Source: Gammaproteobacteria bacterium
GTDB lineage: Bacteria; Pseudomonadota; Gammaproteobacteria; Ga0077536
Reading direction: 5' to 3'
Assembly: GCA_021773835.1 (NCBI GenBank)
Contig: JAJFJQ010000028.1
Location: 558,001-622,000 of the forward strand
DNA: 64,000 bases
In this document: in pieces, positions 32,878 through 55,908 of the stretch
Position numbering within the stretch: position 1 is the stretch's first letter
Layout of the letters: the number at the start of each line of letters is the position of its first letter
The notes under the pieces: model-generated
What the model was told of the DNA's origin: nothing
The model's input: only the letters and a program-made list of their open reading frames with translations
Database searches by the model: none
Made by a program: the position numbers and the translations under genes

Positions 32878-33768
32878 ATGTCGGCAGACAAACAGAAACC
32901 CAATTTCAGCTTTGAATTTTTTCCGCCGCGTAGTGCCGAAGCACAAGGTAAGTTCGAACTCACCCGCGACAGGCTATCGGCGCTGAAACCAAATTTTTTC
33001 TCGGTAACCTTCGGCGCCGGTGGTGGTACTCGTGAACTGACGCTGGAAACCGTGATGGCGATAACCAAGGCCACCGGCATAGATGCCGCGCCACATATCT
33101 CTTGCATCGGATTCCCAATAGACAATATTCGCGCTGTCTTACGCGAGTACCTGGACAACGGGATCAAGCGCGTTGTCGCTTTACGCGGAGATTTGCCATC
33201 GGGGACGACGGGGGTTGGCGAGTTGCGTTACGCCAATGAATTGGTCGAGTTCATCCGCCAAGAAACCGGGTCGGCGTTTCATATAGAGGTCGCGGCCTAT
33301 CCTGAATTTCACCCACAATCCGCCACCGCAGCTGACGATTTACAGAACTTCAAGCGTAAAGTCGATGCCGGCGCCGATAGTGCTATCACGCAATATTTCT
33401 ACAATCCAGATGCGTACTTTCGATTTGTTGACAGTGCCTTGAGCATTGGTATCGACATCCCGATCGTTCCTGGGATCATGCCGATCATCAACTACACGCA
33501 ATTGATGCGCTTTTCTGAAATGTGCGGGGCCGAGATCCCACGTTGGATCGTACGGCGGCTGCGAGATTTCGGTGATGACCGAGCCTCGATCCGGGCATTC
33601 GGGATCGATGTCACGACCGAATTATGTCGGCGGTTGCTCGAACAAGGCGTTCCCGGCCTGCATTTCTACAGCATGAATCAATACGAGGCGTCTGAGGCGA
33701 TCTGGCGCAACCTAGGTATTGATACACCGGATAGTGAGATCCGTAGTGGTAAGCCTGCAGACGAATAA
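32878..33768 (+). CDS. metF: 5,10-methylenetetrahydrofolate reductase
   Basis: A 296-residue FAD enzyme reducing methylene-THF to methyl-THF for methionine synthesis. The start FSFEFFPPRSAEAQGKFE, the segment FSVTFGAGGGTRELT and the later SAITQYFYNPDAYFRFVD are diagnostic. An AAGG site lies seven bases before the ATG. The end overlaps the likely start of the response-regulator gene by about 23 bases, which may be coincidental coupling because the functions are unrelated. Confidence 0.97.
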   Translation: MSADKQKPNFSFEFFPPRSAEAQGKFELTRDRLSALKPNFFSVTFGAGGGTRELTLETVMAITKATGIDAAPHISCIGFPIDNIRAVLREYLDNGIKRVVALRGDLPSGTTGVGELRYANELVEFIRQETGSAFHIEVAAYPEFHPQSATAADDLQNFKRKVDAGADSAITQYFYNPDAYFRFVDSALSIGIDIPIVPGIMPIINYTQLMRFSEMCGAEIPRWIVRRLRDFGDDRASIRAFGIDVTTELCRRLLEQGVPGLHFYSMNQYEASEAIWRNLGIDTPDSEIRSGKPADE

Positions 33769-36483: not shown

Positions 36484-36540
36484 AACCGATATTGACGCGT
36501 CCTTGGCTATATTTCTGACCGGTCCATATCAACTCGATAG

Positions 36541-36642
36541 CACAATTTTTCCTAATTAATTTAATGGTTTGCAATATACATATAATCTGTTATCTTAGGT
36601 ATTATATGAGCGAATAATCGCCTAACTACGGTGTAACGGAGA
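36541..36642 (+). promoter_or_regulatory. AT-rich promoter candidate before mshL
   Basis: The 159-base gap between mshM and mshL is strongly AT-rich in its second half and contains a perfect -10 hexamer TATAAT at 36581-36586. The -35 is not convincing. A GGAG element lies almost at the mshL ATG. An internal promoter for mshL onward is likely but unproven. Confidence 0.4.
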
Positions 36643-38310: not shown

Positions 38311-38336
38311 ATCGGTCGTCGGTCGGAGCGAGCCCA

Positions 38337-39911: not shown

Positions 39912-39987
39912 ACTTTTTACACCGACCCACGTGATCCAATGAAATTGAATAGTTCTACAGATCGATCATCGTGCGAGCGCATCGCTT

Positions 39988-41724
39988 GTGTCTGTACTTG
40001 GTAAGGAAGCCGGATTGAACGCCAATAAACAAGCGCTACGTATCGGTGAACTGCTGGTCCAGAAGGGTGTCGTCAGCCCAGACCAAGTTCGTATTGCCTT
40101 AATTGAGCAAAAAAAGAATAAAGATCATCTCGGTAAAATTTTGGTTCGCCTCGGTTTTGCCACCGAAGCGATCATCTTGGATGTGCTCGGTGGCGCACTC
40201 GGCCAACAGAAGGCGGACCTATCCAAAGTTGTCGTCGACAGCGAAGCAATAAAGCTTATCCCGAAGGATATGGCTCGGCGTTTTCATATCTTGCCGCTAA
40301 CGTTTGAGGCAAATCGAAATCGATTGACCTTGGCAATGGCGGATACGTTCAACGTCGTTGCCTTGGATCAAATTACGGCGCTGCTCGGTGGGGAGACCGA
40401 GATCGTTCCTCTGATGGCCGGTGAGGCGGAAATCGAGAAGGCGATCGATCAGTTCTACGGATTCGAGCTTTCGGTCGATGGGATCCTGCAAGAGATCGAG
40501 ACCGGCGAGATCGACTACGAAAGTCTCGACGCAGATAGTGAAGAATACAGTCAACCGGTTGTCCGATTGGTCAACGCGTTGCTTTCAGATGCTGTCAAAC
40601 GGGGCGCTTCCGATATCCACTTCGAGCCGGAGGAAGGTTTCCTTCGCTTTCGGTACCGTATCGACGGCGTCCTGCGTCAGGTTAGAAGCCTGCATAAAAA
40701 CTACTGGTCGGCGCTAGCTGTTCGCTTAAAGGTAATGTCAGGAATGGACATCGCTGAAACTCGGGCACCGCAAGATGGTCGCATCGGATTATCCCTCTCC
40801 GGCCGCGCAATCGATTTTCGTGTATCGACAATTCCGACGGTACATGGTGAAAATATTGTTTTACGTGTCCTCGATCGACAAAAAGGTATTGTCCCGATTG
40901 ATGAGATTGGGCTTGAGAAAGAAGTGCTCGACCTGTTGAAGCTTATGGTCGCCCGTCCTGAGGGATTACTACTTGTAACAGGTCCGACCGGAAGCGGTAA
41001 GACGACGACCTTGTATAGTGTGTTGAACCATCTCAATGACGAGACGGTCAATATCATGACTTTGGAAGATCCAGTTGAATACCCGATGGGCATGATTCGT
41101 CAAACATCGGTAAACGACGCTGTCCGCCTAGATTTCGCAAGCGGAATTCGTTCGATGCTGCGTCAAGATCCCGACATAATTCTAGTCGGCGAGATCCGAG
41201 ATGAAGACACCGCCGCGATGGCGTTCCGCGCAGCGATGACAGGCCACCAAGTTTTTTCGACCTTGCACGCGAATTCGGCCCTGGGATCAATCCCTCGACT
41301 GATCGATATGGGTGTACGACCCGACATCATGGCCGGCAACATCATTGGCATATTAGCCCAGCGTTTGGTTCGTAAACTAAAGGAGGGCTGTACGGAGCCG
41401 TATGAACCATCGACCATCGAACGTCAAATATTGGGTTTGGATGCGATGCCGGACGGTCAGATTATTTATCGTGTCGCTGAAGAGTTTCAGCACGCCGAGC
41501 ACCAAGGATATTCTGGACGGGTGGCGTTGATGGAGTTGTTGAAGTTCGACCGCGAAATGGACGAATTGATCGCACGTGCAGCGACGCAGCGGGAGCTAAA
41601 CGATGCTGCGAGGAAGAATTCGTTTAAGTCACTTGCGGAGGTCGCGGTTAAGCGAGTGCTCGAAGGTCAGACGACACTTGATGAAGTTTCTCGAGTCGTC
41701 GATCTAACTGAGCGGTTAGTTTGA
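39988..41724 (+). CDS. mshE: Pilus extension ATPase MshE with MshEN c-di-GMP-type domain
   Basis: A 578-residue GspE/PilB-family ATPase. The N-terminal MshEN domain has two repeats, RIGELLVQKGVVSPDQV and LGKILVRLGFATEAI, the layout that binds cyclic di-GMP in Vibrio cholerae MshE. The motor domain has Walker A TGPTGSGKTTTLYS, the Asp box and Walker B RQDPDIILVGEIRDEDTA, and a His box STLHANSA. The CxxC zinc site usual in this family is not seen: only one cysteine (EGCTEPY) is in the region. The start is GTG. The stop overlaps the mshG start. Confidence 0.93.
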   Translation: MSVLGKEAGLNANKQALRIGELLVQKGVVSPDQVRIALIEQKKNKDHLGKILVRLGFATEAIILDVLGGALGQQKADLSKVVVDSEAIKLIPKDMARRFHILPLTFEANRNRLTLAMADTFNVVALDQITALLGGETEIVPLMAGEAEIEKAIDQFYGFELSVDGILQEIETGEIDYESLDADSEEYSQPVVRLVNALLSDAVKRGASDIHFEPEEGFLRFRYRIDGVLRQVRSLHKNYWSALAVRLKVMSGMDIAETRAPQDGRIGLSLSGRAIDFRVSTIPTVHGENIVLRVLDRQKGIVPIDEIGLEKEVLDLLKLMVARPEGLLLVTGPTGSGKTTTLYSVLNHLNDETVNIMTLEDPVEYPMGMIRQTSVNDAVRLDFASGIRSMLRQDPDIILVGEIRDEDTAAMAFRAAMTGHQVFSTLHANSALGSIPRLIDMGVRPDIMAGNIIGILAQRLVRKLKEGCTEPYEPSTIERQILGLDAMPDGQIIYRVAEEFQHAEHQGYSGRVALMELLKFDREMDELIARAATQRELNDAARKNSFKSLAEVAVKRVLEGQTTLDEVSRVVDLTERLV

Positions 41725-42929
41725 TGGAAGTCTTTCTCTATAAGGCGATAAATGATCAAGGTCGCGTACTACGCGGCAAGGTCGATGCTGTCAATCCAGC
41801 AGATCTCGAAACTCGCCTAAGTCGCATCGGGCTGGACCTGGTGAACTACAAAGAGGTCAAATCAAAACACAAAAATGTCACTGGCCGCGGTATCAAGCGT
41901 ACCGACCTAATCACGTTTTGCTTTCACCTAGAGCAGTTGACCCGAGCGGGTGTTCCAATTCTAGAGGGATTAGCGGATCTTCGCGATACGATCGACAACA
42001 AGCGTTTGCGCGAGGTCACTGCGGCCATGATCGAGTCAATCGAGGGCGGTAAGAACCTTTCGGACGCGATGAAAGATTTTCCGTTCGTTTTCAGTCCAGT
42101 ATTCGTTAGCCTAATTGCAGCGGGTGAACAAAGCGGACAGATTGTCGACGTCCTGCAAAAGCTAATAGAAAACCTAAAGTGGCAGGACGAGCAGGCCGCT
42201 CAAACGAAAAAGCTTTTAATGTATCCAAGTATCGTTTCGGTCATCGTAGCTGGGGTGCTATTTTTTCTGATGCTTTATGTCGTTCCCCAGTTGATCTCAT
42301 TTCTGAGCACCATGGGACAGGAATTGCCCCTACAGACCAAAGCACTAATTTGGACGTCCGCGTTTTTCCGTGAGTACTGGTACCTGGTTCTCGCCACACC
42401 AATTGTCGTTGGGGTCGGTTTAGTGGCAGCGATAAAAACGAACCCGGTATTTGCGCTACGAGTTGATGGTTTAAAGCTACGCTTACCGGTAATTGGACCG
42501 ATTTTAAAAAAGATCATTGTGACTCGGGTTTGTAACGTCTTTTCGATCATGTACTCCTCCGGCATAACGGTATTGGAGTGTATTCGCACTAGCGAAGATG
42601 TTGCGGACAACAAGGCAATCCAACAGGCGGTACGCGATGCAGGCAGAATGATCGCCGACGGCGGCGGGATCAGCGCGAGCTTTGCCGCAACCGGATTATT
42701 TCCTCCGTTGGTCGTACGTATGCTTCGCGTCGGCGAAAACACCGGTGCCCTTGAAGAGGCGCTCGGCAACGTGAGCTATTTCTATACGCGTGATGTCAGA
42801 GAATCAGTTGCGAATCTGCAGGCGATGATCCTGCCCGGAATCACGATTGTGTTAGGTGCGATGATCTTGTGGATCATGGCGGCCGTTATGGGACCGATAT
42901 ATGACCTTTTCACTCAAATCAAATTTTAA
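41724..42929 (+). CDS. mshG: Inner-membrane platform protein MshG (GspF/PilC family)
   Basis: About 401 residues with two GspF domains (residues 65-190 and 270-395) and three membrane helices, including VIVAGVLFFLMLYVVPQLI and the C-terminal ITIVLGAMILWIMAAVMGP. The repeat signature FCFHLEQLTRAGVPILEGL and its later partner VCNVFSIMYSSGITVLECI are typical. The ATG at 41724 shares one base with the mshE stop. It forms the platform on which MshE acts. Confidence 0.94.
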   Translation: MEVFLYKAINDQGRVLRGKVDAVNPADLETRLSRIGLDLVNYKEVKSKHKNVTGRGIKRTDLITFCFHLEQLTRAGVPILEGLADLRDTIDNKRLREVTAAMIESIEGGKNLSDAMKDFPFVFSPVFVSLIAAGEQSGQIVDVLQKLIENLKWQDEQAAQTKKLLMYPSIVSVIVAGVLFFLMLYVVPQLISFLSTMGQELPLQTKALIWTSAFFREYWYLVLATPIVVGVGLVAAIKTNPVFALRVDGLKLRLPVIGPILKKIIVTRVCNVFSIMYSSGITVLECIRTSEDVADNKAIQQAVRDAGRMIADGGGISASFAATGLFPPLVVRMLRVGENTGALEEALGNVSYFYTRDVRESVANLQAMILPGITIVLGAMILWIMAAVMGPIYDLFTQIKF

Positions 42930-44619
42930 GCTGTCAGAAAAGCGGTCACTATTGATCACCGCCGACAAGGCGATCCTATACCAATGCCGTAATGGCCAAG
43001 TCGATATTGCGTACGAATTCTCCAGTGACGAGGATGGACGTGAACAATTCACTCGATGCTTAACCGAAACTAACCGCTCACCGATCTACATCCTGGTTGA
43101 TATAGTCGAAGAAGAATACCGTCAGGACGTGATCCCTCATGTCTTTGGTGCGGATCGAAAATCAGTATTAGAACGTAAATTTTCTCGCCTATTTCGCGGT
43201 ACAGGTTATTGTTACGCTTTGACTCAAGGTCGCGAAACCGAGGGGCGCAAAGACGATAAGGTTCTACTCACCGCGATTACTAAGCCCGATGTAATTCAAC
43301 CTTGGGTAGAGTTGATACAAGAACAAACGATCCCAATCGCGGGCATTTTTTCATTACCAGTGCTCAGCCAACGTTTGCTGAAAAAGATCGGTGCCAAAGG
43401 ACCAAATATCCTGTTGTTGAGCGTGCAGAGCGCAAGCGGGTTACGGCAAACCTTCTTTCGCGATCGGCAAATCAAGATCAGCCGCCTTGCGCCAATGCCG
43501 CGGCTTGGATCGGTGCCATATGCGTCTCACTTGATGGGCGAACTCGAAAAATTGCGACGCTACTTAAATAGTTTGGCGTTGATTTCCAACGAGGGCCCGC
43601 TGGAAGTTTATATCTTGAGCCACGGCGAGTGGTTAAACGAACTCGAACAACATTGTCGGGATACCGTTGATGAGAAGTTCTTTCTACTTGATGTCGCCGA
43701 CGTCGGTGTTCGCCTCGGATTGGAGAAAAAACTGACCACCGCCTACAGCGATACGATCTTCAATCAGCTGTTGCTCGATGAGTCACCAAAAAACCATTAC
43801 GCGAGTACGGACGAGACGAAATACTTCACCTTACACCGGGCGCGCAATGGTCTCCTGGCTGCAAGTTTCTTGTTGCTGTTGGGTTCTATGGGCTTAAGCG
43901 GTTTCAATTTTCTCGATGCCGTATCTCTGAAACAGCAGGCATTGGATGCAGAACAAAAAGCGAATTTTTATCAAGACCGATATGCAATGGCGCGGCAAGA
44001 TTTACCGCCGACACCTGTGGAACCGCATGATATTAAAACCGCGGTGGATATCGTCGATACATTGCGCCACTACAAGAGCAGTCCATTACCGCTTCTTAAG
44101 GTGATTGGAGGCGCCTTGGAAGAGACACCTAAAGTTCGTCTAGATGCGATCGACTGGTATTTCGCGGTTGATCCTAATGCGAGCGGAGAGCTTAACTCGC
44201 GACGCAAGCAATCGGTTGAAGGCGAGCAAATCGAGCGTGATCCGAAATACTCACACTACCATATTGCGGTGTTCAGAGCCCACCTACAACAATTTACTGG
44301 AGACTTTCGCGGCGCAATCCGACAGGCTGACGAACTTGTAAAACGCTTAGAACAGCAGCCGGACGTTAAACATGTAAAGGTGACGAAGTATCCACTCGAC
44401 GTTACCCCGGACGCGAGCATGAGCGGCACTGCAACAGAGGCAACGGCTTCGGACGACGCACGATTTACCGTCAGGATCGTATTAGGCGTCACGCAAGCAC
44501 AAGCCAAAACCACGGTACGCCACGATACGTTTACGAAGCTTGGGGTCGAACGTCAGATCGCTGCCTACGATATCGGCGATACCGGGGCTTGGCGGTCCGA
44601 TAGTAGATCCTTGGAGTAA
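42901..44619 (+). CDS. PilM-PilN-like fusion (MshI-like) pilus assembly protein
   Basis: A 572-residue protein in the position of mshI. Residues 1 to about 300 look like the actin-like PilM/MshI cytoplasmic domain (KRSLLITADKAILYQC, YILVDIVEEEYRQDVIP, FSLPVLSQRLLKK), without an obvious ATP motif. A membrane helix follows at about 319-338 (NGLLAASFLLLLGSMGLS), then a coiled coil and a periplasmic PilN-like domain up to the end. So one polypeptide seems to cover what PilM and PilN do separately. Its start overlaps mshG by 29 bases and its stop precedes the PilO-like gene by three bases. Confidence 0.7.
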   Translation: MTFSLKSNFKLSEKRSLLITADKAILYQCRNGQVDIAYEFSSDEDGREQFTRCLTETNRSPIYILVDIVEEEYRQDVIPHVFGADRKSVLERKFSRLFRGTGYCYALTQGRETEGRKDDKVLLTAITKPDVIQPWVELIQEQTIPIAGIFSLPVLSQRLLKKIGAKGPNILLLSVQSASGLRQTFFRDRQIKISRLAPMPRLGSVPYASHLMGELEKLRRYLNSLALISNEGPLEVYILSHGEWLNELEQHCRDTVDEKFFLLDVADVGVRLGLEKKLTTAYSDTIFNQLLLDESPKNHYASTDETKYFTLHRARNGLLAASFLLLLGSMGLSGFNFLDAVSLKQQALDAEQKANFYQDRYAMARQDLPPTPVEPHDIKTAVDIVDTLRHYKSSPLPLLKVIGGALEETPKVRLDAIDWYFAVDPNASGELNSRRKQSVEGEQIERDPKYSHYHIAVFRAHLQQFTGDFRGAIRQADELVKRLEQQPDVKHVKVTKYPLDVTPDASMSGTATEATASDDARFTVRIVLGVTQAQAKTTVRHDTFTKLGVERQIAAYDIGDTGAWRSDSRSLE

Positions 44620-44622
44620 ATT

Positions 44623-45243
44623 ATGGCCGAACAAAAGATTGATTGGACCGTTTTGCGTGGGGCCGTTGGCGTGTTTTCGATTTGCCTCTTAGTTAGTGGC
44701 ATCCTACTCGGCGCCAGTGACTACTTCCGTGACGAAATGGAGACGGAGTATCGAAATCACCATGCCCGATTTCGCGATGTCAGCCGCAAGTATTTAGCGG
44801 TGGACGAAGAGGAGCGAATTATCGAGCAGACCTATCCTAAATTTGTGCATTTATATGAGTCTGGAATACTGGGGCCGGAGCACAGGCTAAGTTGGATCGA
44901 GTCCCTACGTAGTGCCGGGGAGGAGATCAAGCTTCCCGAAATAGGCTACCGGGTTAATTCACAGTTGGTTTACGCACCGGAGTTCCCGCTAGCCCTAGGT
45001 GCATTCGATGTACATGCGAGTGAAATGCAATTGAGTCTAGGCTTGCTCCACGAAGGCGACCTACAGAGTTTATTTAGTGCATTGGATCGCGATGCAGAAG
45101 GTTTGTATTCCGTATCGCGCTGTGAGGCAAACCGGATCAACGAACAGACTGAATTTGATCCGGCACAACCGATGATCTCAGCGACCTGCCGGCTAACCTG
45201 GTTTACCGTTGACCTAAAAGGCACACGGAAGCTCTCGCTATGA
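44623..45243 (+). CDS. PilO/MshJ-like inner-membrane protein
   Basis: A 206-residue protein with one N-terminal membrane helix (about residues 13-31, GAVGVFSICLLVSGILLGA), then a charged coiled coil and a small alpha/beta domain. This is the layout of PilO/MshJ, which dimerise with PilN-type proteins in the alignment complex. Sequence similarity to named families is low by eye, so the call rests on architecture and on position between the PilN-like and PilP-like genes. The stop overlaps the next start as ATGA. Confidence 0.6.
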   Translation: MAEQKIDWTVLRGAVGVFSICLLVSGILLGASDYFRDEMETEYRNHHARFRDVSRKYLAVDEEERIIEQTYPKFVHLYESGILGPEHRLSWIESLRSAGEEIKLPEIGYRVNSQLVYAPEFPLALGAFDVHASEMQLSLGLLHEGDLQSLFSALDRDAEGLYSVSRCEANRINEQTEFDPAQPMISATCRLTWFTVDLKGTRKLSL

Positions 45244-45737
45244 AAACGAATACTATCTTGACTGCGTTTAGTTTGTTCACGTTGTTGATGTTGGCGGCAA
45301 CCGCATCTGCCGCTGCGGACGTCGGGCGTTTGTTCTTTACGCCTGCTGAACGTTCGGCGTTCGAACGCGCGCGTCAGGCAGCCGAAGCCGGTCCAGTGCG
45401 CGAGAAACTAGACCCTGATCCCGACATCGTCGTCCCAGTAATTGAGGATCTACCACAAACAGTAAAACCGATGATTACGGTCGACGGCTATGTTCGTCGC
45501 TCGCGAGGAACTGCGACGCTGTGGGTGAACGGTGAGAATAATTACGATGGCGATCTGTACTCCAGCCAGGTAGATCCAAGCGCTACACATATGCGCGGCA
45601 ACATCGTTCGTCTCACCCCGATGAATGAGGATGAATCCATAGACCTCAAACCGGGTCAGACCTACGATCCGAACAGGATCGTCACCAGTGATGCCTATGA
45701 AACGCCGGTAATGGGCGACGATTTAGGTGGTCGCTGA
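45240..45737 (+). CDS. PilP/MshK-like periplasmic pilus protein
   Basis: A 165-residue exported protein with a clear Sec signal peptide (ILTAFSLFTLLMLAATASAAA). The mature part has an Asp/Glu/Pro-rich linker followed by a short beta-rich domain starting PMITVDGYVRRSRGTATLWV, which resembles the C-terminal beta domain of PilP and of MshK. In known systems that domain links the inner-membrane complex to the secretin. No lipobox is seen. It overlaps the PilO-like gene by four bases. Confidence 0.65.
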   Translation: MKTNTILTAFSLFTLLMLAATASAAADVGRLFFTPAERSAFERARQAAEAGPVREKLDPDPDIVVPVIEDLPQTVKPMITVDGYVRRSRGTATLWVNGENNYDGDLYSSQVDPSATHMRGNIVRLTPMNEDESIDLKPGQTYDPNRIVTSDAYETPVMGDDLGGR

Positions 45738-45804
45738 CGCTCTTAAGACAGATTTGTGACTGTGTTGACGAAGAACATGGGTCGCTTGGGCTACTTTTTC
45801 CTAT

Positions 45805-47487
45805 ATGTACGCCAAACGTAGACAACAGGGAGTCGTGCTGCTGACCTTAATGCTCGTGATAATGGCGGCGGGGTCGTTTGTGTTATTGAAAGCATTAAAC
45901 GTTGCCGCGAGCAATTCCGGTTACGATGAATCGGCCACTCGATCGGCACTGATGCAAGCAAAGCTAGCTTTGATTGGGTATTCAGTAAACGATCCCGCGG
46001 CAAACCTGGGTCCTGGGCGTCTACCTTGCCCCGATTTTAGCGGCGATGGTGCAGCAGTGGGCAGCTGTTCGCTCGGTGGTGCCAATCCGACGACCGGACG
46101 CTTTCCCTATGCGACAATCGGTAATGGCCGCATCACTGATTCTACCGGCGCGGATTTGTGGTATGCGGTCGCCGATTCGCACCGGTATTTTCTAACGACA
46201 CCGATCAATAGCGATACCGGTGATACGACGGATGATCTTAGTGTCGATGGAGAGGACGATATCCTTGCCGTCATTATCGCGCCGGGCCCTCCGCTTGCCG
46301 GGCAGTCTCGATCTACCAGTGCCGGACTCGCCGATTTTCTTGAAGGTGACAATGCAAGTCTCGGTGATAGTACGTTTACCCGGACTTCAGAGTCACCGTT
46401 TAACGATAAAATAATCACGCTAACTCGTGGCGAATTGATGGCGGCTGTAGAGCAGCGAGTACTCGGCGAGGTCAATCGGCATTTGGCCGAATACTTCGCG
46501 GCATACGGTGGGTACCCTTGGGCAAGTGCGATCGCCGATCCCGCAACGAAGACGCTGTTCGACGAGACGATCAGTTTGCGCGACGGTCACCTAGCAGTCC
46601 ACCAAAACGGTGATGTTTTTCCGTCGGCATTTTCACTGGATTGGAACGTTCCAAGCGATGGTACCTTATCGGTCGGACCGGAACCGAACGAAATTTGCAT
46701 ACGTTGGAATGAGTGTACGGATCCGGATCCTGATATCGATTTCGATTTCACCGGCAATACGATCACCTTTACTAGCGGACTGTGCACTTGGATCGACGCA
46801 GAAACGTTTAACTGTCAAGGTACCGAAGCCGTATCCGCAACAGTTGCCGGCGGGGCGGCGTTGATACGCACGTTTACGGTGAACCTGACAATAACGGGTA
46901 TGACGCCAACGGTCACGGCACCTACAGCGTTAGCGCCACGAATACGAGGCGCGGTTTTCAGCGGCCGCTTGCCGCCTGGTTCGAGTGGGACAATTGGAGT
47001 CAGTGACCTCTTATCCGGCGTACCACGTGGCGTATCGAGAACGCTTACATTGTCGGCTGGCGATAGCGTGACGGTCAGCTTCCAAAACGTGCGGTTCTTG
47101 TTGGGGGACGATAGGGATGTCGTCGTTACCGAGGCGAGTTCGCCTGCGGCGCTGCCACGGTGGTTTACCGCGAACCAGTGGCATCACTACATTCATTATG
47201 CCTACGCCTTGCCAGAATCCCTTGGCGGAAGTGGGACCTGTGTGGCCGGTAGCTCATGCCTGACCTTGGAAGTTGCTCGTAACGGGACCACGACAGCAAA
47301 TGATCGGGTTCGTGGTCTCGTCGTCATCGCAGGCCGGCAGCTGACGGGCTTACCCCGAGGCGGGTTAATGTCAGATTATTTCGAGTTGGAAAACGACCAA
47401 GCCACGACACCGAACGAAGTTTTTTCAATGCGCCCAGTAAGCGGCACATTCTCCGATCGCGTAAGTGTTCTTGCTACTGTCCCCTAA
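45805..47487 (+). CDS. Large prepilin-like protein, possible tip/adhesin component
   Basis: A 560-residue protein. Its N-terminus (KRRQQGVVLLTLMLVIMAAGSFVLL from residue 4) has a basic leader, a glycine and a hydrophobic helix, as in PilX/GspK-type minor pilins, but lacks the usual Glu5 after the cleavage glycine. Residues 50-110 contain ALIGYSVN and GRLPCPDFSGDG, a motif also present in the next protein. The remainder is beta-rich and Cys-containing, with repeated PD/GDD turns, and could be an adhesive domain comparable in role, though not in visible sequence, to MshQ. It is followed at once by a second prepilin. Confidence 0.65.
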   Translation: MYAKRRQQGVVLLTLMLVIMAAGSFVLLKALNVAASNSGYDESATRSALMQAKLALIGYSVNDPAANLGPGRLPCPDFSGDGAAVGSCSLGGANPTTGRFPYATIGNGRITDSTGADLWYAVADSHRYFLTTPINSDTGDTTDDLSVDGEDDILAVIIAPGPPLAGQSRSTSAGLADFLEGDNASLGDSTFTRTSESPFNDKIITLTRGELMAAVEQRVLGEVNRHLAEYFAAYGGYPWASAIADPATKTLFDETISLRDGHLAVHQNGDVFPSAFSLDWNVPSDGTLSVGPEPNEICIRWNECTDPDPDIDFDFTGNTITFTSGLCTWIDAETFNCQGTEAVSATVAGGAALIRTFTVNLTITGMTPTVTAPTALAPRIRGAVFSGRLPPGSSGTIGVSDLLSGVPRGVSRTLTLSAGDSVTVSFQNVRFLLGDDRDVVVTEASSPAALPRWFTANQWHHYIHYAYALPESLGGSGTCVAGSSCLTLEVARNGTTTANDRVRGLVVIAGRQLTGLPRGGLMSDYFELENDQATTPNEVFSMRPVSGTFSDRVSVLATVP

Positions 47488-47488
47488 C

Positions 47489-48346
47489 ATGTTGCGTTCG
47501 TCAAATAATGGCCATGGCTCGCACCATGGTTTCACGCTCGTCGAAATGGCCGTGGTGTTATTCATCCTGGGCCTTTTGATAGCGGGACTATTAGGGCCAT
47601 TAGAAACGCAGTTGGAGGCGCGAGACCGTCGCCAGACGATCGATTCGATGGAAGAGATCCTTGATGCCTTGTATGGCTATGCGATCACGAATCGACGACT
47701 ACCATGTCCAAATACCGACGGGGACGGAGTCGAACAACTCGACACGGATATCAACGGTACAGACGACTACGATGAATTCACAGGCGCCGCCTTGGACGCG
47801 ATCGTTGCTTCCGGTGGCGACTGCCTCAACGAAGAAGGATTTGTTCCGTGGGTGACACTTGGCGTTAAGCAAGGTGACGCGTGGGGTAATCGATTTACGT
47901 ATCGAGTAGCGGCACGTGATTTCACGACCGTGGATGTTGACGGTATTTGCGACGGGAACGTTGCGCCATTCGAACTCGATTTGTGTTCGGTAGGCGATGT
48001 CGACGTGCAAACGCGAGGTGACGATCCCGGTACCGGTGGGATAGAAGGCAAAGTGATTATGGCCGAAGTTTCTAACGTACCCGCGGTAATAATGTCGCAT
48101 GGCCGCAACGGGTTCGGAGCAACCACAGTGGGCGGGGTCGCACGCCCAGCACCACCGGCTGGAACCGATGAGCTCGAAAACGTAAATCTAGATGAGACGT
48201 TTATCTCCAGAAGCTACACCGGGGATAACCAAACCTGTGATGAGACCGATGAGTCCCAGGCATTTTGTCCATTCGACGATATTGTTAAATGGCTTTCGTC
48301 CCCGGTACTCAATAATCGTCTGGTGACCGCCGGTCGTTTACCGTAG
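47489..48346 (+). CDS. Type IV prepilin, large (class with RLPCP motif)
   Basis: About 285 residues. The prepilin signal GFTLVEMAVVLFILGLL with Glu5 follows a 14-residue leader, so a PilD-type peptidase should process it; no such peptidase is encoded in the window. After the helix comes YGYAITNRRLPCPNTDGDG, which matches the motif in the preceding protein, then an acidic, Asp/Gly-rich globular part with four or more cysteines. The ATG at 47489 lies two bases after the previous stop. It is too large for a major subunit and is probably a minor pilin. Confidence 0.8.
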   Translation: MLRSSNNGHGSHHGFTLVEMAVVLFILGLLIAGLLGPLETQLEARDRRQTIDSMEEILDALYGYAITNRRLPCPNTDGDGVEQLDTDINGTDDYDEFTGAALDAIVASGGDCLNEEGFVPWVTLGVKQGDAWGNRFTYRVAARDFTTVDVDGICDGNVAPFELDLCSVGDVDVQTRGDDPGTGGIEGKVIMAEVSNVPAVIMSHGRNGFGATTVGGVARPAPPAGTDELENVNLDETFISRSYTGDNQTCDETDESQAFCPFDDIVKWLSSPVLNNRLVTAGRLP

Positions 48347-48420: not shown

Positions 48421-50136
48421 TTATGACGAATCGGTCATACTGTATTCCCGGTTCGTCAACGTAAATCGAACTGCACCATCAAGGTTTTCGCTCAATACTA
48501 AGCGATAACCATTCACCTCGGCCTGTTGCGCCGATTGATACAAGCCGATCCCAAATCCGTCGTCTGACGATACTGGTTGAGAGAGGAGCTGGCTCGCTAA
48601 GGATGCCTCGATGGCTTCGCCGTTGTCGACAACGCTCAACACCACCTTGCCTTCGTTTTCGTAGAGGCCGACTTTTATCTGGATCGGAACATTGGTCTTT
48701 GCCTTGTTACGCGCGTTGTCCAACAGATTTTCTACGACGCTGTCAAAACAGTCCCACGGTAAGGCAAGCTCGCCATTGTGGATATCGGCCAAGAATTCAA
48801 TATTTTCGGAGTCATGGCGTGCTACCAGTTGGTCCCACCAGGACGTAATGGCGCCACGCTCGCTCTCCTGCGGGGCTGGGAGTTGCAGCTTATCCAAGGC
48901 TAGTTGTAATCGTTGGGTGATCTGGGGAAGCTGGCGTCGGAGCAGTGATTGGCGCTGTTGTTCGCGTTGCCTGTCAGACGAATCGGTATCCTCGAGGATC
49001 GCCGCCGTTGTCGTCTTTAACGACTGTAAGAGATTTTTGATGTCGTGAGTTAAGCGCGCGCCGGTTTCATGAACAGCTTGTAGATGTGCCTGGCTAGCTT
49101 GCTCAGTTTCCCGAATCTTCGCCGAATAAAAATGCCCGAGGACTTGGATTAATAATCGGCAATGAATTAATAATGATGGCCCGACTTGACGTTCGGTGAA
49201 CAGTTTCACCTCAAGTGCATCGGTGGTGAGTAGCGTGCTGAATTCAGCTGTCCCCGGCACTCCACCGCGCTGATCGTTTGCTCTCCATTCGGCCCCCTGG
49301 ATCCACGGGATCTCACACAACTCCTCTAGCGCCGCGTCCAAGAATTCTTGCGGTTGCTGCCGACGGCGAGCGAGCTGTGCGAGGCTTGAGAGCCAACTCT
49401 CGAACGGCGTGCCGATATTTAACACCGACTTTTCCCATAGTGCGCCGAGACCCGAGCCGGTCCCCGGTGTAATCAACCAACTGATCAGCACCAGGAAAGA
49501 ACTTAGAATCAAAAGGCTAACAACTAAGGCGACCGGGTATTCGACGTGCAGCTCGTAGGTCATCAGTACGCTACTGAGTGCGAGTAAGGCGGTCATTAAT
49601 GCGATAGTAATACCGCGAAAAAAGTCAATCGGAAATGTCTCCCGCTGTGCCGTGCTTGAGGTGGGAAACAAGAACAACAGCAACGGTAGGGCCGTCCACG
49701 CAAGTCGAAATGAATACAGTACGGCATTGTTGAGTTTGCCGATTTCGAAAATCATCGGTACGCATTCGATCAACAACACGGAGATGAGAAAGGTCAACGT
49801 GATCATGTAAGCGAGGCGTTCTTGCCGCGTGGAGAATGATCTACCTGCAACGATCCCTATCAGTAGGATCATCCAACCGAACAACAACCACCAGTCAAGC
49901 GCCGTGACAAAGGCTGCCGTCAGCACCACAATTAAGCTTGAGGACCACCTATCGAGGCGCTGATCGGTCTGCCAAATGGGCTGCCAGAGAAAGAACAAGC
50001 CTAGATGTGCCGTCATAAGAGAGGCGGACAGTGCGCGACCGAAATCAGCGCGCAAGGCGAGGTTGAGTACGATTAACATCATCGCCAGGATCCAATGCTC
50101 GCGACGATGGTCGAGCAGGCGAGACAAATTGATCAC
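48421..50136 (-). CDS. Membrane histidine kinase, PrsK-like
   Basis: A 571-residue sensor kinase. Residues 1 to about 225 form six or more membrane helices; a GAF-like region follows (about 235-345). The phosphoacceptor is in THDIKNLLQSL (about residue 368). The ATPase domain has the N box VVENLLDNARNK, VDNGEAI and GFGIGLYQS. The HDIKNL form and the multi-pass sensor resemble PrsK, the kinase paired with PrsR in PEP-CTERM systems. The likely partner is the sigma-54 regulator at 33746, placed at the other end of the pilus operon. The start is GTG. No exosortase is in the window, so the pair may have been adapted to pilus control. Confidence 0.85.
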   Translation of the reverse strand: MINLSRLLDHRREHWILAMMLIVLNLALRADFGRALSASLMTAHLGLFFLWQPIWQTDQRLDRWSSSLIVVLTAAFVTALDWWLLFGWMILLIGIVAGRSFSTRQERLAYMITLTFLISVLLIECVPMIFEIGKLNNAVLYSFRLAWTALPLLLFLFPTSSTAQRETFPIDFFRGITIALMTALLALSSVLMTYELHVEYPVALVVSLLILSSFLVLISWLITPGTGSGLGALWEKSVLNIGTPFESWLSSLAQLARRRQQPQEFLDAALEELCEIPWIQGAEWRANDQRGGVPGTAEFSTLLTTDALEVKLFTERQVGPSLLIHCRLLIQVLGHFYSAKIRETEQASQAHLQAVHETGARLTHDIKNLLQSLKTTTAAILEDTDSSDRQREQQRQSLLRRQLPQITQRLQLALDKLQLPAPQESERGAITSWWDQLVARHDSENIEFLADIHNGELALPWDCFDSVVENLLDNARNKAKTNVPIQIKVGLYENEGKVVLSVVDNGEAIEASLASQLLSQPVSSDDGFGIGLYQSAQQAEVNGYRLVLSENLDGAVRFTLTNREYSMTDSS

Positions 50137-50298: not shown

Positions 50299-51069
50299 AT
50301 GAATCTAACGAACATTCTATCTGTAACGCAGTTTGTGTGGTTGGAATTGAGGCGGTCACGATTGTGGTGGATAGCTATGGCCTTGATCGTGATCGGCAGT
50401 GCGATCGGCGAGTTCGCGGCGACTATTGCGATAACGGAGAGTAGCCAATATCGGCTTATGTTTTATGCCGCGACTATGCGCATCGCAGCCGTCTTTGTAA
50501 TGGCATTACTGGTGGCAACAAGCATACTGCGAGAGGTTGATGACAAAGTTGTCGAGTTGACATTGTCGCGTCCGCTATCGCGCCCTGAGTGGTATATCGG
50601 CAAGCTGATTGGGTATGTCGCGGCGTCCGCGGCGCTTGCGATTATTGTAAGTGTGCCACTTATACTCCAAGTTCCCACCGCGGCACTTGGCTGGTGTTAT
50701 TCTCTCGCGCTCGAACTTACCATCGTAGTAGCGGCGACGCTGGCATTTGCGATCACGCTAAGACAAATTCCGCTTGCACTCAGCGCCGTGGCCGGATTTT
50801 ATATTCTCGCGCGAGGCATCGCCGGGATGGCGCTGATCAGCCGAGGTCCAACGGTTGATCTGTCGTTAACTTCTAGTCAGGTCATCGCAAGGATGGTCGA
50901 TGTGCTGGCCTATGTATTGCCCGACCTCGAACGGTTCACGGATTCCGCTTGGCTGATCACGAGTTCACCGTCAGCGTCCGAGTTCGGGCTAATGACTGTG
51001 CAGGCGTTGGTATATTTGATGTTGTTGGTAGCGGTTGGCCTGTTCGATCTGCACAGACGTAACTTCTAG
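50299..51069 (+). CDS. ABC-2 type transporter permease
   Basis: A 256-residue integral membrane protein with about six helices. The N-terminal VWLELRRSRLWWIAMALIV, the loop REVDDKVVELTLSRPLSRPEWYIGKL and the following helix are typical of ABC-2 permeases. The only ABC ATPase nearby is at 54258, 3.2 kb downstream, with a single-pass protein, a cyclase and a pilin between. This spread set resembles PilI with PilH in Myxococcus. The substrate is not known. Confidence 0.8.
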   Translation: MNLTNILSVTQFVWLELRRSRLWWIAMALIVIGSAIGEFAATIAITESSQYRLMFYAATMRIAAVFVMALLVATSILREVDDKVVELTLSRPLSRPEWYIGKLIGYVAASAALAIIVSVPLILQVPTAALGWCYSLALELTIVVAATLAFAITLRQIPLALSAVAGFYILARGIAGMALISRGPTVDLSLTSSQVIARMVDVLAYVLPDLERFTDSAWLITSSPSASEFGLMTVQALVYLMLLVAVGLFDLHRRNF

Positions 51070-51091
51070 GTGGCGCCAGGGTAACCCACAC

Positions 51092-51829
51092 ATGTTCCTA
51101 GATCGCCGTAACGAACGCAGCGTATATTCGGTTCCGCGCTGGGTCTTGATCTTGCTGTTACTCAGTATAAGCCTGCAGCTCGCCGTTCACAGCCGCCTGC
51201 CTGCGTCGATCGCAAGTGCAGAAGATCTCCCGAGCCCGCCGCCCTATGAATTTATGCGTGCAATGAGTTTCGGTGAACAACCGTTGTTAGCAAAGGCGGT
51301 CATGTTATGGCTGCAAAGTTTCGATAATCAACCGGGGATCAGTATTCCCTTTGTTGCACTGGATTATGCAAAAATCATCGCGTGGCTGGAGTTGATCCTT
51401 GCGCTCGATCCAAATGCACAATACCCGCTGCTCGCGGGTAGCCGAATTTACGGTGAAGTACCGGATAAAACCAAACAGCGCGCGATGCTTGAGTTCGTCG
51501 CGCGCGAATTTCGCCGGAACCCGAACGCTCGTTGGCAATGGATGGCGCATGCGGTGTTCGTCGCGAAACACAAGATTGGTGATAATGCGTTGGCGCTTCG
51601 CTACGCGCGCAGTTTGGCCGAGGAGGCCGAAGGAACACAGATCCCGCACTGGGCACAGCAGATGGTGATTTTCGTTCTTGAAGACATGGGCGAGTTGGAG
51701 AGCGCGAAGGTCCTTTTAGGGGGACTGCTGGATAGCGGCAAGATCATTGATCCGAACGAGCAATGGTTTCTGTCAAAGCGTCTGGCGGAGATTGAGGAGC
51801 GAATGGGGTTGGACTACCGCGACGATTAA
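51092..51829 (+). CDS. Single-pass helical protein beside ABC permease (PilG-like position)
   Basis: About 245 residues. One N-terminal membrane helix (about residues 14-31, WVLILLLLSISLQLAV) is followed by a soluble helical domain that looks like degenerate TPR units (LDYAKIIAWLELILALDPNAQYPLLAGS and later VLEDMGELESAKVLLGG). I do not recognise a named family. The ATG at 51092 is used, 22 bases after the permease stop; a TTG reading starts inside the permease. Its position next to the permease suggests it is the accessory subunit of the transporter, as PilG is thought to be for PilHI. Confidence 0.65.
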   Translation: MFLDRRNERSVYSVPRWVLILLLLSISLQLAVHSRLPASIASAEDLPSPPPYEFMRAMSFGEQPLLAKAVMLWLQSFDNQPGISIPFVALDYAKIIAWLELILALDPNAQYPLLAGSRIYGEVPDKTKQRAMLEFVAREFRRNPNARWQWMAHAVFVAKHKIGDNALALRYARSLAEEAEGTQIPHWAQQMVIFVLEDMGELESAKVLLGGLLDSGKIIDPNEQWFLSKRLAEIEERMGLDYRDD

Positions 51830-51892
51830 TGCGGAGGCATTGGGCGTATACCGCTGAAACATTGGATTCGAGCGACGGTGCTTTCCGCCTGT

Positions 51893-53203
51893 TTAGCTGA
51901 TGCCAACACTCATTTCTGCGTTGAAACTCGTGATCCCGTCAAAATTCGGATCATTGCGTGCACTTAAGCTCAAAATGCGATTACGCATCACCACGTAATA
52001 GCGTGAATCCGGATGCGCGCCATTTAGGGTCGCGAATAATTGTTCAGCACCGACCCAATCGCCGCGGTAATACGCCTCCAAGGCGGCGTTGTGATCGGAC
52101 AACCATGTCTCCTGCGCGGGATCGAGATTGTCACTTAGACACATTGGCTCATGGATCCGGGTTGCCAATCCCTTGCCTTTAACTCTCACGTGGTCGAGCT
52201 CGCGAAAAATGTACTGAGGATTGGCGATTTTCGTCGCTTCACTGACGATGAGCTTTGTATCGTAGACTCTAGTGAGGCCTTCTAGGCGCGCCGCAAGATT
52301 TACCGCGTCGCCGACAACGGTGTAGGCGATCCGATACCGTGACCCCATATTTCCAACATTCATGATGCCGGTATTGATCCCGATCCCTATATCTATCGCC
52401 GGCCAATCGCGTTTCGTAAACGTCGCATTTAGCCCCTCCAAGGCGTCCAACATTGCTAGACCGGCGCCGACAGCGCGCGCAGCGTGATCTTCCTGCGTCA
52501 TCGGCGCGCCCCAAAAAACCATGATGGCATCGCCAATATATTTATCGATGGTCGCACCATGACGATGCAAGATATCCGTCATAAGGGTGAAATAAAGATT
52601 GAGCATTTGTGCCAATTGGCGTGGGTCCAAGCGCTCGGCGATGGCGGAAAACTCTCGAATATCGCAAAACAATACGGTTAGCTCGCGTGCTTCACCGTCC
52701 AGCGAATACGATTCCGGCGAGTTGCTGATATCGTTGACAACTTCCGGCGGCACATACTGTCCGAATATGGCGATCAGCTTTTGCTTCTCACGCGTCTCGA
52801 CAAAGTATTTGATCAGTACATTGACCGAGAACAACACCAAGATGGTCAGCAATGTGTATTCCATCGGAATTAATCGCGCGATCCCGGGCGAGGTGTACTC
52901 GACGTAGAACGGTGGTGCCATTGAAAGGAAGGTCACAATCGATGCCTTGATCGGATCGAGGCTTGGGAGTAGTAGCGATAGGAGGATGCCGACACAGAAA
53001 AAGCTTGCGAAATCGGCGCCCAGTTGCGAGCCGGTGAAGCCCCGATCGACAAAATCCGCCAATAGATCGGGTCGAATTTGAAAACGCCGCTCGAGGCCCA
53101 GCGGTAATTCCAGAATACCCACGGCATTCAGCAGAAAAAGAAGAAAAACGGCGAGTATTAGCAGCGCGTGGGCGCGAAACGGAGTGAATTTTGCCAATTT
53201 CAT
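51893..53203 (-). CDS. Class III adenylate/guanylate cyclase, membrane bound
   Basis: A 436-residue protein. The N-terminal 150 residues contain four hydrophobic segments without a full CHASE2 sensor. The catalytic domain follows, with metal-binding aspartates in LFCDIREFSAI and DKYIGDAIMVFWG, and then GIGINTGIMNVGNMGS and YTVVGDAVNLAARLEGL. The lysine and aspartate around the second site fit an adenylate rather than guanylate cyclase, by family knowledge. About 70 C-terminal residues form a helical tail that resembles TPR (EAYYRGDWVGAEQLF). It is divergent from the pilin gene and shares its 275-base upstream region. Confidence 0.88.
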   Translation of the reverse strand: MKLAKFTPFRAHALLILAVFLLFLLNAVGILELPLGLERRFQIRPDLLADFVDRGFTGSQLGADFASFFCVGILLSLLLPSLDPIKASIVTFLSMAPPFYVEYTSPGIARLIPMEYTLLTILVLFSVNVLIKYFVETREKQKLIAIFGQYVPPEVVNDISNSPESYSLDGEARELTVLFCDIREFSAIAERLDPRQLAQMLNLYFTLMTDILHRHGATIDKYIGDAIMVFWGAPMTQEDHAARAVGAGLAMLDALEGLNATFTKRDWPAIDIGIGINTGIMNVGNMGSRYRIAYTVVGDAVNLAARLEGLTRVYDTKLIVSEATKIANPQYIFRELDHVRVKGKGLATRIHEPMCLSDNLDPAQETWLSDHNAALEAYYRGDWVGAEQLFATLNGAHPDSRYYVVMRNRILSLSARNDPNFDGITSFNAEMSVGIS

Positions 53204-53271
53204 TACGCCACTTCTGAGTTGGGTAGGCTACTTATGCGAGCTCGTGTTGGGTTCGGATCAACCGTATAGAC

Positions 53272-53285
53272 CGGTAATATTACCG
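53272..53285. promoter_or_regulatory. Perfect palindrome upstream of the cyclase gene
   Basis: CGGTAATATTACCG is a perfect 14-bp palindrome, 69 bases upstream of the cyclase start and about 150 bases upstream of the pilin sigma-54 promoter. Position and symmetry suggest an operator, possibly an upstream activator site. The binding protein is unknown. Confidence 0.35.
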
Positions 53286-53423
53286 CTCGATAGCACATGG
53301 TGATGTCGATCCGTCGTCACTCTACGGACACATTGTTGATATATCGTCAAAACTGTTCGTTCCTTGACAATCAAACCAGCCGCCGTCTTGCTTAATGCCA
53401 TATTTTTCAGTGAGTTATGATCT

Positions 53424-53440
53424 TGGCATGGATTGTGCTG
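53424..53440 (+). promoter_or_regulatory. Sigma-54 (RpoN) promoter of the pilin gene
   Basis: TTGGCATGGATTGTGCT fits the -24/-12 consensus: GG at 53426-53427 and GC at 53438-53439 with exactly ten bases between, and the TTGGCA block complete. Transcription would start near 53451, leaving a 28-base leader before the pilin ATG at 53479. pilA-type genes are often RpoN-dependent through PilS/PilR, and this region encodes a sigma-54 activator and a kinase. Confidence 0.75.
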
Positions 53441-53478
53441 TATCGATTAGCAAGATAAATCCCTTGAGGATACATACA

Positions 53479-54189
53479 ATGCCCAACATGCAAAAACAAC
53501 GTGGATTCACCCTCGTCGAAATTGCGATCGTCCTTGTCATTATCGGCCTATTGCTTGGCGGGATCCTCAAGGGCCAGGAACTCATCACGAGCGCCAGGGT
53601 GCGCAATATCGCCGACCAAAACTCTGGTGTGCAGGCGGCATACTACGGCTTTATCGACCGCTACCGCCAGGTCCCCGGAGACTGGAACAACACCAATGCG
53701 GCGCAGGCGATCCCGGGTGTCACCACCGGCGGTAACGATAGTGGTCGACTCGACGCAGTTAGTGGCAGTGATTGGACGGAGGCTCTCGCGCTATGGGAGC
53801 ACATGTCCAAGGCCGGGTTTATTCAAGGCAACTATACCGGCGGCACAACCGCGCCGACTGCTGCCGATACCGACCAAGCACCGCGAAATGCGTTCAATGG
53901 GTTTTTGGTCTTATATCGGACCGACGACTACGATGACGCGGGTACGGCTGCGGAGCGCCTCAACCTCGTTCTCGGTGCAGGCATCCCGGTAAATGTGTTG
54001 CGTGAACTGGACCTTAAGGTCGACGACGGGCTGCCGGAAACTGGGGTCATGCGACATGCACTGACGAGTGGCGCTACCCATGGTGCAACGGCGCACTCCG
54101 TGGCGGCGTGCGTAGACGGCACGACAACGCCACCCATATGGGACATCGCCTCAAACGAACAGCTGTGCAACGCCATCTACCTGTATTGA
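53479..54189 (+). CDS. Type IV prepilin, candidate major subunit
   Basis: About 236 residues. An eight-residue leader (MPNMQKQR) precedes GFTLVEIAIVLVIIGLLLGG with Glu5, a textbook prepilin signal. The next segment ILKGQELITSARVRN is shared by a broad family of gammaproteobacterial pilins. The globular part contains several Gly/Asp/Thr turns and a C-terminal cysteine pair (VAACVDG and EQLCNAIYLY), as in the D-region of pilins. A GAGGA site is nine bases before the ATG; an upstream ATG at 53395 overlaps the promoter and is rejected. Its own sigma-54 promoter and a strong hairpin behind it suggest high expression. Confidence 0.9.
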   Translation: MPNMQKQRGFTLVEIAIVLVIIGLLLGGILKGQELITSARVRNIADQNSGVQAAYYGFIDRYRQVPGDWNNTNAAQAIPGVTTGGNDSGRLDAVSGSDWTEALALWEHMSKAGFIQGNYTGGTTAPTAADTDQAPRNAFNGFLVLYRTDDYDDAGTAAERLNLVLGAGIPVNVLRELDLKVDDGLPETGVMRHALTSGATHGATAHSVAACVDGTTTPPIWDIASNEQLCNAIYLY

Positions 54190-54215
54190 TAAGCGCCAAC
54201 AGCCATGCCCGTTTA

Positions 54216-54238
54216 ACGGCCCGCCTTGTGCGGGCCGT
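54216..54238 (+). terminator. Strong GC hairpin between pilin and ABC ATPase genes
   Basis: ACGGCCCGC and GCGGGCCGT form a perfect 9-bp stem with the loop CTTGT, 27 bases after the pilin stop and 20 bases before the ABC gene. The following ATTACTTT is only a weak T tract, so partial termination is likely. This would give much pilin and less transporter from one promoter. Confidence 0.65.
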
Positions 54239-54257
54239 ATTACTTTGGGAATAAATT

Positions 54258-55013
54258 ATGGCGAGCGTTCAAACGCCAAATTCAAACCCATGTCCCGTTC
54301 AGTTTACGAGCGTGACCAAGCGGTATGGTCCACGCTGGATTTTGCGCGGCATAGACTTAGAGATAGGTGCGGGTGAGACGGTCGGACTTATCGGTATTAA
54401 TGGCGCCGGTAAGTCGACCTTACTGAAGGCGATGCTCGATCTGACCAGTGTTGACGACGGCCACATCGATATCTTCGGTACCAACCACAACCACACCGCG
54501 GCGCGTGACAAGGTGTCCTATCTCGCGGAGCGTTTTATTCCGCCGCACTATGCCAACGGTCTCGATTTCCTGCGATATATGGCGAAGCTGCACCACTGTG
54601 CGCCGAGCGAAGCGGCAATCCATGCAGAATGTCAGAGCCTTGAGCTCGACGTCGAGGCGCTCCGGCGTCCGGTACGTGAATATTCGAAGGGGATGACGCA
54701 GAAGCTGGGCTTGATTGCCTGCCTATTGGTTCAGTGTCCGCTGCTCGTTTTGGATGAACCAATGAGCGGCCTTGATCCGAAAGCTCGCGCGCTCTTTAAG
54801 GCGCGTCTAGCACGCCTTAAAGATGCCGGGGTCACGATATTTTTCAGCACCCATCTGCTCGACGATGTGGCCGTGATTTGCGACCGGGTAGCTATCCTGG
54901 AGGCCGGGCAGATCCGTTTTACCGGTACTGTAGCTGACTTTCAGGCCACCCATCGTGGTGCCACGCTTGAGGCGTCCTTTCTGAGCTGTATTGGCGCAGC
55001 GTTACCGGCGTAA
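54258..55013 (+). CDS. ABC transporter ATP-binding protein (PilH-like position)
   Basis: A 251-residue ABC ATPase. Walker A is GINGAGKSTLLKAM, the signature is YSKGMTQKLGL (a common variant of LSGGQ in ABC-2 exporters), Walker B LLVLDEPMSGLDP, and the switch histidine is in FFSTHLLDD. It is of the type that pairs with ABC-2 permeases such as the one at 50299. Lying directly behind the pilin, it resembles PilH, which with PilG and PilI is required for pilus formation in Myxococcus xanthus. What it moves, if anything, is unknown. Confidence 0.88.
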   Translation: MASVQTPNSNPCPVQFTSVTKRYGPRWILRGIDLEIGAGETVGLIGINGAGKSTLLKAMLDLTSVDDGHIDIFGTNHNHTAARDKVSYLAERFIPPHYANGLDFLRYMAKLHHCAPSEAAIHAECQSLELDVEALRRPVREYSKGMTQKLGLIACLLVQCPLLVLDEPMSGLDPKARALFKARLARLKDAGVTIFFSTHLLDDVAVICDRVAILEAGQIRFTGTVADFQATHRGATLEASFLSCIGAALPA

Positions 55014-55095
55014 AGGATCGGCCCTGGCGGCCGCTAACTGGAACAAATTAACTCGGCGAACCAGCGCTACGCTGTCACGCCGCTACGCTGGGCCA

Positions 55096-55908
55096 ATGAT
55101 AGAACTACATCCTGAACTTGCGCGTTCGATTGTCAACGATCTACCGGCAGGTATTGCCGTGGTCGACGCTGACGGCCGCGTCGTGTGGGGTAACGACGTG
55201 CTGTGTCGCTTATTGCAGCGCGACGCGAGCGAAATTATTGGATGCAGCGCCGAATCACTACTCCTGCCGATTCCCCAACCTGAGCGTTTGGGTAATCCAC
55301 ATGAAGGCCAGAGGATCATTGAGAATGGCGGGTTGATTGGCGTATCGACGTTTTTGGGTACAACAAATTTTCGTGGTCGCGCACTGTTGGTGATAGACCG
55401 GGAAAATGCTATCGACTGGTTCTTCGATGTGCTCTCAACCGGCGGTTTCGATGGCTCGGCGGCATCACGTTTCTTATCGCGCAACGCCGTGTTCGGTCGC
55501 TTACAGCTTGAGGTCTCGCGCTCGCGGCGTTATGGGAATCCATTGTCGTGTTTGGTGATACGCATCGATTTTGGGACACCAGAATCGGTTGGCCAACGGC
55601 GCACCGTGCACGACATGATAGCCACTACACTAACCGAGCAACTGCGGTGGGTAGACGTGCTCGGACAATGGTCCGATCAAGCACTGATCACAATATTGCC
55701 GGAGACGACTGATGCGGCGGCACTGCAATTGGCACAAAAGGTTGCCGACGCGTTAGATCCAAGTCTCGCGCGCGAGACACCCGCCGTCAGTATCAATGTG
55801 GGTTCGAGTAGTTGGCGCAAAGGTGACGACGCGGAACGCATGGTGCGGCGTGCGGATATTGTCGCGCGACGCCAAATCGGGAGCACCGCCCGCACCCTTA
55901 ATTTTTGA
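55096..55908 (+). CDS. PAS-domain protein with degenerate GGDEF domain
   Basis: About 270 residues from the ATG at 55096. Residues 10-120 look like a PAS domain (PAGIAVVDADGRVVWGNDVL). From about 145 a GGDEF-type fold follows (RLQLEVSRSRRYGNPLSCLVIRID), but where the GGDEF motif should be it reads GQWSDQALITILPET. The catalytic glycines and acidic pair are lost, so it should not make cyclic di-GMP. It could bind a nucleotide or act as a protein sensor. An in-frame TTG at 54991 overlaps the ABC gene and is less likely. It is the last gene of the pilin-ABC unit. Confidence 0.75.
   Translation: MIELHPELARSIVNDLPAGIAVVDADGRVVWGNDVLCRLLQRDASEIIGCSAESLLLPIPQPERLGNPHEGQRIIENGGLIGVSTFLGTTNFRGRALLVIDRENAIDWFFDVLSTGGFDGSAASRFLSRNAVFGRLQLEVSRSRRYGNPLSCLVIRIDFGTPESVGQRRTVHDMIATTLTEQLRWVDVLGQWSDQALITILPETTDAAALQLAQKVADALDPSLARETPAVSINVGSSSWRKGDDAERMVRRADIVARRQIGSTARTLNF

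Follow-up and report, generated by a model that had tools for sequence, protein, structure and literature searches.

A conserved ABC-2 transporter module encoded with type IV pilins and MSHA-type pilus genes in proteobacteria

The window analysed here is the whole stretch of 64,000 nt from a Gammaproteobacteria bacterium (GCA_021773835.1, JAJFJQ010000028.1, 558,001-622,000, forward strand), and all coordinates are those of the window. The initial annotation had described a locus of six genes, encoding a permease, a single-pass protein (termed X in the following), a pilin, an ABC ATPase, an adenylate cyclase and a GGDEF protein. Open reading frames together with Pfam and NCBIfam profiles place all six where they had been described (Table 1). 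The order of the module in the window is permease-X-(cyclase)-pilin-ATPase.

Table 1. Features of the pilin/ABC locus and of its surroundings in the window
Feature	Coordinates	Strand	Evidence
NtrC-type sigma-54 response regulator, PilR-like candidate	33719..35203	+	PF00158 2e-64, Response_reg 6e-14
MSHA-type pilus machine	35257..48346	+	MshM-, MshL-, MshN-, MshE-, MshG-, MshI-, MshJ-, MshK-like genes
Two pilin-like genes within the MSHA-type machine	45805, 47465	+	
Membrane histidine kinase, optional neighbour, PilS-like candidate	48421..50136	-	HATPase_c, weak TIGR02916
ABC-2 type permease, 256 aa	50299..51069	+	PF12679 2.5e-7, over curated cut-off
X, single-pass, predicted periplasmic TPR-like alpha-solenoid, 245 aa	51092..51829	+	without Pfam or NCBIfam match
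Class III adenylate cyclase, optional neighbour	51893..53203	-	PF00211 2.6e-23
Pilin promoter region, sigma-54 (-24/-12) box	53395..53478	+	box TGGCATGGATTGTGCT begins 55 bp 5' of ATG 53479
Type IV pilin	53479..54189	+	N_methyl PF07963 5e-8, TIGR02532
ABC ATPase, permease partner	54258..55013	+	PF00005 5e-22
PAS + degenerate GGDEF protein, optional neighbour	about 55096..55908	+	PF00990 3e-8, PAS

Profile searches found no model for the X family in Pfam or NCBIfam. The AF2 model of X (pLDDT 94.9) consists of a transmembrane helix (17-35) followed by a helical TPR-like solenoid. Compared with solved structures, X gave no match better than E = 0.04, generic TPR proteins being the best, and a significant match to the TPR profile was absent, with 1 of 21 X members matching weakly (E 0.22). 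As modelled, X is TPR-like in its fold only. The positive N-terminus of X speaks for a solenoid on the periplasmic side. For the permease the best Foldseek match of the AF2 model (pLDDT 93.7) was NosY (TM about 0.7), a likeness at the level of the fold only with about 15% identity. The permease profile furthermore matches PmtD at 2e-6, a pointer to real export. In the ATPase the Walker A motif, the signature (YSKGM), the Walker B motif and the H-loop are all intact, and together with the ABC-2 fold of the permease this makes the two proteins an ABC-2 pair of the NosFY/Pmt-like type. Among solved structures the ATPase profile matched ABCA lipid transporters best, followed by 1vpl and NosF; the latter (188 bits) is one of the closest bacterial ATPases with a solved structure. 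Against all NCBIfam exporter models the ATPase scored far under the respective cut-off.

Half of the family genomes (18 of 36) carry X, as do 53 of 369 class genomes and 35 of 398 from the phylum draw; these frequencies vary with the genome draw. X also occurs in MAGs whose titles name alpha-, beta- and gammaproteobacteria. We scored the neighbourhood of 80 X loci, nearly all of them from separate genomes. In 77/80 of them the permease is the gene directly 5' of X, and the fetched stretch contains pilus genes, likewise in 77/80. A pilin follows within 4 kb 3' of X in 60/76 loci and the ATPase within 9 kb in 56/73. The ABC genes thus occur with pilus genes much more often than chance would give. 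In relatives the MSHA-type machine is colinear with the ABC module; one betaproteobacterium (L023) carries MshL, N, E, G, I, J, pilin-like genes, permease, X, ATPase and a PilT-like ATPase in an unbroken series. These counts bear out the idea that permease, X and ATPase are a set kept together with pilins and the MSHA-type machine, and the neighbourhood of ABC genes and pilins expected in relatives holds across many families and also outside the class. The ABC module is a widespread conserved set and not a local oddity. Where the context is readable, it is nearly always accompanied by an MSHA-type machine or a pilin. X represents a conserved family of membrane proteins for which the annotation "pilus-associated" can now be used.

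The module is also found in a public MAG (L022) that bears the title Klebsiella pneumoniae. Its proteins share no more than 40-52% identity with those of the window, and this title is probably a mislabel.

The profile of the pilus-linked ATPase was searched over the 369 class genomes at a threshold of E ≤ 1e-60, which falls in a clear gap: orthologues reach at least 262 bits, and the next-best ABC ATPases of the examined genomes at most 182 bits. An orthologue was detected in 53 genomes, as a single copy in each. The genomes with X (53) and those with the ATPase (53) have 52 in common (n = 369; Fisher p = 3e-61, taking genomes as independent). Wherever the ATPase did not adjoin X, an orthologue was present elsewhere in every tested genome except the fragmented G335. 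Such dispersed ATPases adjoin a pilin in four loci (L151, L154, L156, L158) and the assembly ATPase MshE in two alphaproteobacteria (L159, L160); in some genomes (L179-L183) the ATPase is far from any detected pilus gene. ABC matches near X in L081, L085 and L113 were considered as the partner and rejected, their LSGGE signature assigning them to other ABC proteins. For a tree we took 41 ATPases that are pilus-linked or dispersed, together with 29 further ABC ATPases from these genomes. In this quick tree, which has some long branches among the other ABC ATPases, a branch with SH-aLRT 90 separates the pilus-linked and dispersed ATPases from the rest. A grouping of the ATPase with other exporters, of the kind that the initial annotation had named as a refutation, was not seen, and the pilus-linked ATPases form a clade apart.

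Upstream of the pilin a sigma-54 box scoring at least 10/12 was found in 30/56 loci, and at least 9 in 44/56, with a chance expectation at ≥10 of 0.54 (mononucleotide shuffles). In most loci it lies about 50-80 bp 5' of the pilin. No such box was found 5' of the ATPase (0/52 loci). The pilin with the conserved box is probably the major pilin. The arrangement resembles the control of pilA by PilS/PilR via sigma-54 in that the box lies at the pilin and an NtrC-type regulator and a membrane kinase are encoded nearby, which makes the regulator at 33719 and the kinase at 48421 candidates for controlling the box. It differs in that kinase and regulator are not constant in module loci, and the two are PilS/PilR-like candidates only: a histidine kinase stands divergently 5' of the permease in 39/72 loci, and a homologue of the NtrC-type regulator adjoins the ATPase in L097, L104, L105 and L115.

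The adenylate cyclase retains the residues expected for catalysis and ATP specificity, and in the GGDEF protein WSDQALI replaces GG(D/E)EF. The initial annotation had regarded both as woven into the set. This applies to the window, but not to the system: a cyclase is located between X and pilin in 17/73 loci and is absent from both readable loci of the same genus (L026, L027), and the PAS-GGDEF gene was found in 17/62. Both genes are optional neighbours outside the conserved unit. A CRP gene over the NCBIfam equivalog cut-off is located at 56533-57174, after an OsmC-like gene, and is kept beside the module in the family. We considered a local cAMP-CRP circuit and dropped it as without sequence support, because a scan of the window gave no more CRP sites than shuffled sequences.

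The pilus genes of the window include a colinear cluster of MshL, N, E and G with pilin-like genes, as expected of MSHA-type systems, and MshL passes the curated cut-off (TIGR02519, 260.7 vs 250.2). The MshI/J/K-like genes had no match from MSHA family models and are named by their position. By its sequence the N-terminus of MshE resembles the c-di-GMP-binding MshEN type. As a marker for MSHA systems among genomes MshL (TIGR02519) was rejected as too broad, with 217 of 369 class genomes matching at E ≤ 1e-40; these matches probably include PilQ-type secretins. At this threshold 50 of the 53 X-positive class genomes gave a match, compared to 167 of 316 X-negative ones (p = 7e-10).

That a retraction ATPase and a prepilin peptidase are missing had been noted for the window, and there it is true. 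For the cell it does not hold with respect to PilT: three tandem PilT-family ATPase genes are located on the same contig (G000:C21:383365-386627, L187), about 222 kb upstream of the locus. An A24 prepilin peptidase (PF01478, PF06750) was not found in the whole 98%-complete assembly (G000), despite several assembly ATPases. Since 25 of 36 family genomes, one of the same genus (G026) among them, do have PilD, its absence is likely an assembly gap, and a true loss was set aside in favour of this explanation. Elsewhere in the assembly secretin-, MshE- and MshG-like genes occur together with four pseudopilins (L190, G000:C68:186000-205900), probably a type II secretion system.

Among described systems, the MSHA pilus of Vibrio cholerae is similar in that the window has colinear MshL (over cut-off), MshE, MshG, MshM and MshN-like genes. 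The V. cholerae MSHA gene list lacks an ABC-2 permease, X and a partner ATPase, all three of which are present in the window; because V. cholerae MSHA pili function without it, an MSHA machine dispenses with the module in principle (PMC4624765). In the literature searched, which covered few subscription journals, no ABC transporter has been described as part of an MSHA-type system. Within this literature, texts that name MshL, MshE and MshG along with ABC transporters concern Vibrio, in one case by way of a reference title.

PilGHI (TC 3.A.1.144.5) is similar by its list of parts, with an ATPase and a permease of ABC type plus a third protein, encoded beside a type IV pilin. In the window, too, ATPase and permease are encoded together with a type IV pilin. 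According to a description of 1998, PilGHI is reportedly needed for pili of Myxococcus xanthus. The genes pilA, pilG, pilH and pilI form one operon there and are essential for S-motility (PMC3546991), deletion of pilGHI leaves S-motility and EPS defective (PMC5544727), and PilGHI has been termed essential for the translocation of pilin over the inner membrane (PMC3724824). Older literature, quoted in PMC6060248, calls PilGHI unique to the Myxococcus cluster. Two differences are apparent: the order pilA-pilG-pilH-pilI (PMC3546991) is not that of permease-X-pilin-ATPase, and PilGHI adjoins a T4aP (PilMNOPQ) machine whereas the module here adjoins an MSHA-type machine.

NosDFY, which serves the copper-site maturation of N2O reductase, shares the permease fold (NosY), the ATPase match (NosF) and a periplasmic partner. 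It is described to couple ATP hydrolysis to this partner. X, however, is predicted to be a membrane-anchored TPR-like solenoid and not of the NosD type, and it is linked to pili and not to nos genes. The match to PmtD connects the permease to the phenol-soluble modulin exporter PmtCD. PmtD exports amphipathic helical peptides; PmtCD is a Gram-positive peptide exporter and is not known to have a TPR-like partner or linkage to pili.

The occurrence of the module with MSHA-type pili in many proteobacteria suggests that these pili have an extra pump-like machine. We favour a reading in which permease, X and ATPase would form one ABC-2 complex for MSHA-type pili that acts on the pilus through X, and we give it about an even chance; by analogy it is backed by the need for PilGHI in the pili of Myxococcus. 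Such a complex would likely comprise a pair of permeases, a pair of ATPases and X, which would be held in the inner membrane by its helix and extend its solenoid into the periplasm. The filament subunit served by it would be the pilin with the sigma-54 box. ATP hydrolysis would move the permease pair and thereby pass a conformational force to X, as is thought for the action of NosDFY on NosD, and X would in turn act on pilin or assembly complex, with the effect that pili are built or stay extended. Complex formation, the location of X in the periplasm, the need of the module for pili and its direction of action are steps that we infer from the gene set, its conservation and co-occurrence, the single ATPase clade with intact motifs, the predicted folds and the sigma-54 box. 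Points against this reading are the deviating gene order of PilGHI, the V. cholerae MSHA pili that function without the module, the fold-level likeness to NosY, the match to PmtD and the ATPases far from pilus genes in L179-L183. A broader proposal, in our opinion unlikely, is that the loci represent a distinct and widespread class of MSHA-type pili in Pseudomonadota, in which the ABC complex would push the pilus or pilin via X and PilB-type as well as ABC ATPases would power assembly.

The main rival, to which we give clearly less than an even chance, is a true exporter. A pilus-dedicated ABC-2 pair would secrete a small peptide, lipid or glycan with X as its periplasmic acceptor, i.e. a substrate would be moved instead of force being passed, and the product would act on or decorate the pilus. 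An ABC-2 permease with an intact ATPase and a profile match to PmtD fits this. Against it, no recurring biosynthetic gene was seen in a profile survey that covered the genes present in the window, the constant company of the module is a pilin and the pilus machine, and the ATPase resembles none of the NCBIfam exporter models closely enough to come near their cut-offs. The least probable explanation, and a very improbable one, is mere co-location of pili with a transporter doing an unrelated job, e.g. drug or bacteriocin efflux. ABC-2 exporters are common, and with the cyclase, the kinase and the GGDEF gene other loosely related neighbours do gather at this place; yet the linkage to pili persists outside the class, a moved ATPase is often found beside a pilin or MshE, and the co-occurrence of X and ATPase is near-perfect.

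Whether X is a diverged PilG, with the module shared by descent between machines of the MSHA and T4aP types, concerns kinship and is compatible with either force or export as mechanism. We regard such a descent as possible, though at less than an even chance. The same parts, namely ATPase, permease of about 250 aa and accessory protein, stand beside a pilin in both cases, and pilus-based motility requires PilGHI (PMC5544727, PMC3546991), but the gene order differs and PilG is annotated as an efflux accessory factor (PMC3546991) and not as a TPR-like protein. With a PilGHI-like set in about one in seven of the sampled class genomes, the question becomes a general one that is testable in other bacteria.

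Outside the class of the window, one locus (L227) has the order permease-X-pilin-ATPase-MshE-MshG, the module being joined directly to the assembly ATPase. In addition, X is present twice in eight genomes from other classes (G422, G425, G435, G444, G489, G492, G531, G550). In G550, where the surroundings of both copies (L223 and L240) were fetched, each copy has its own permease and pilus genes, which suggests two parallel pilus systems.
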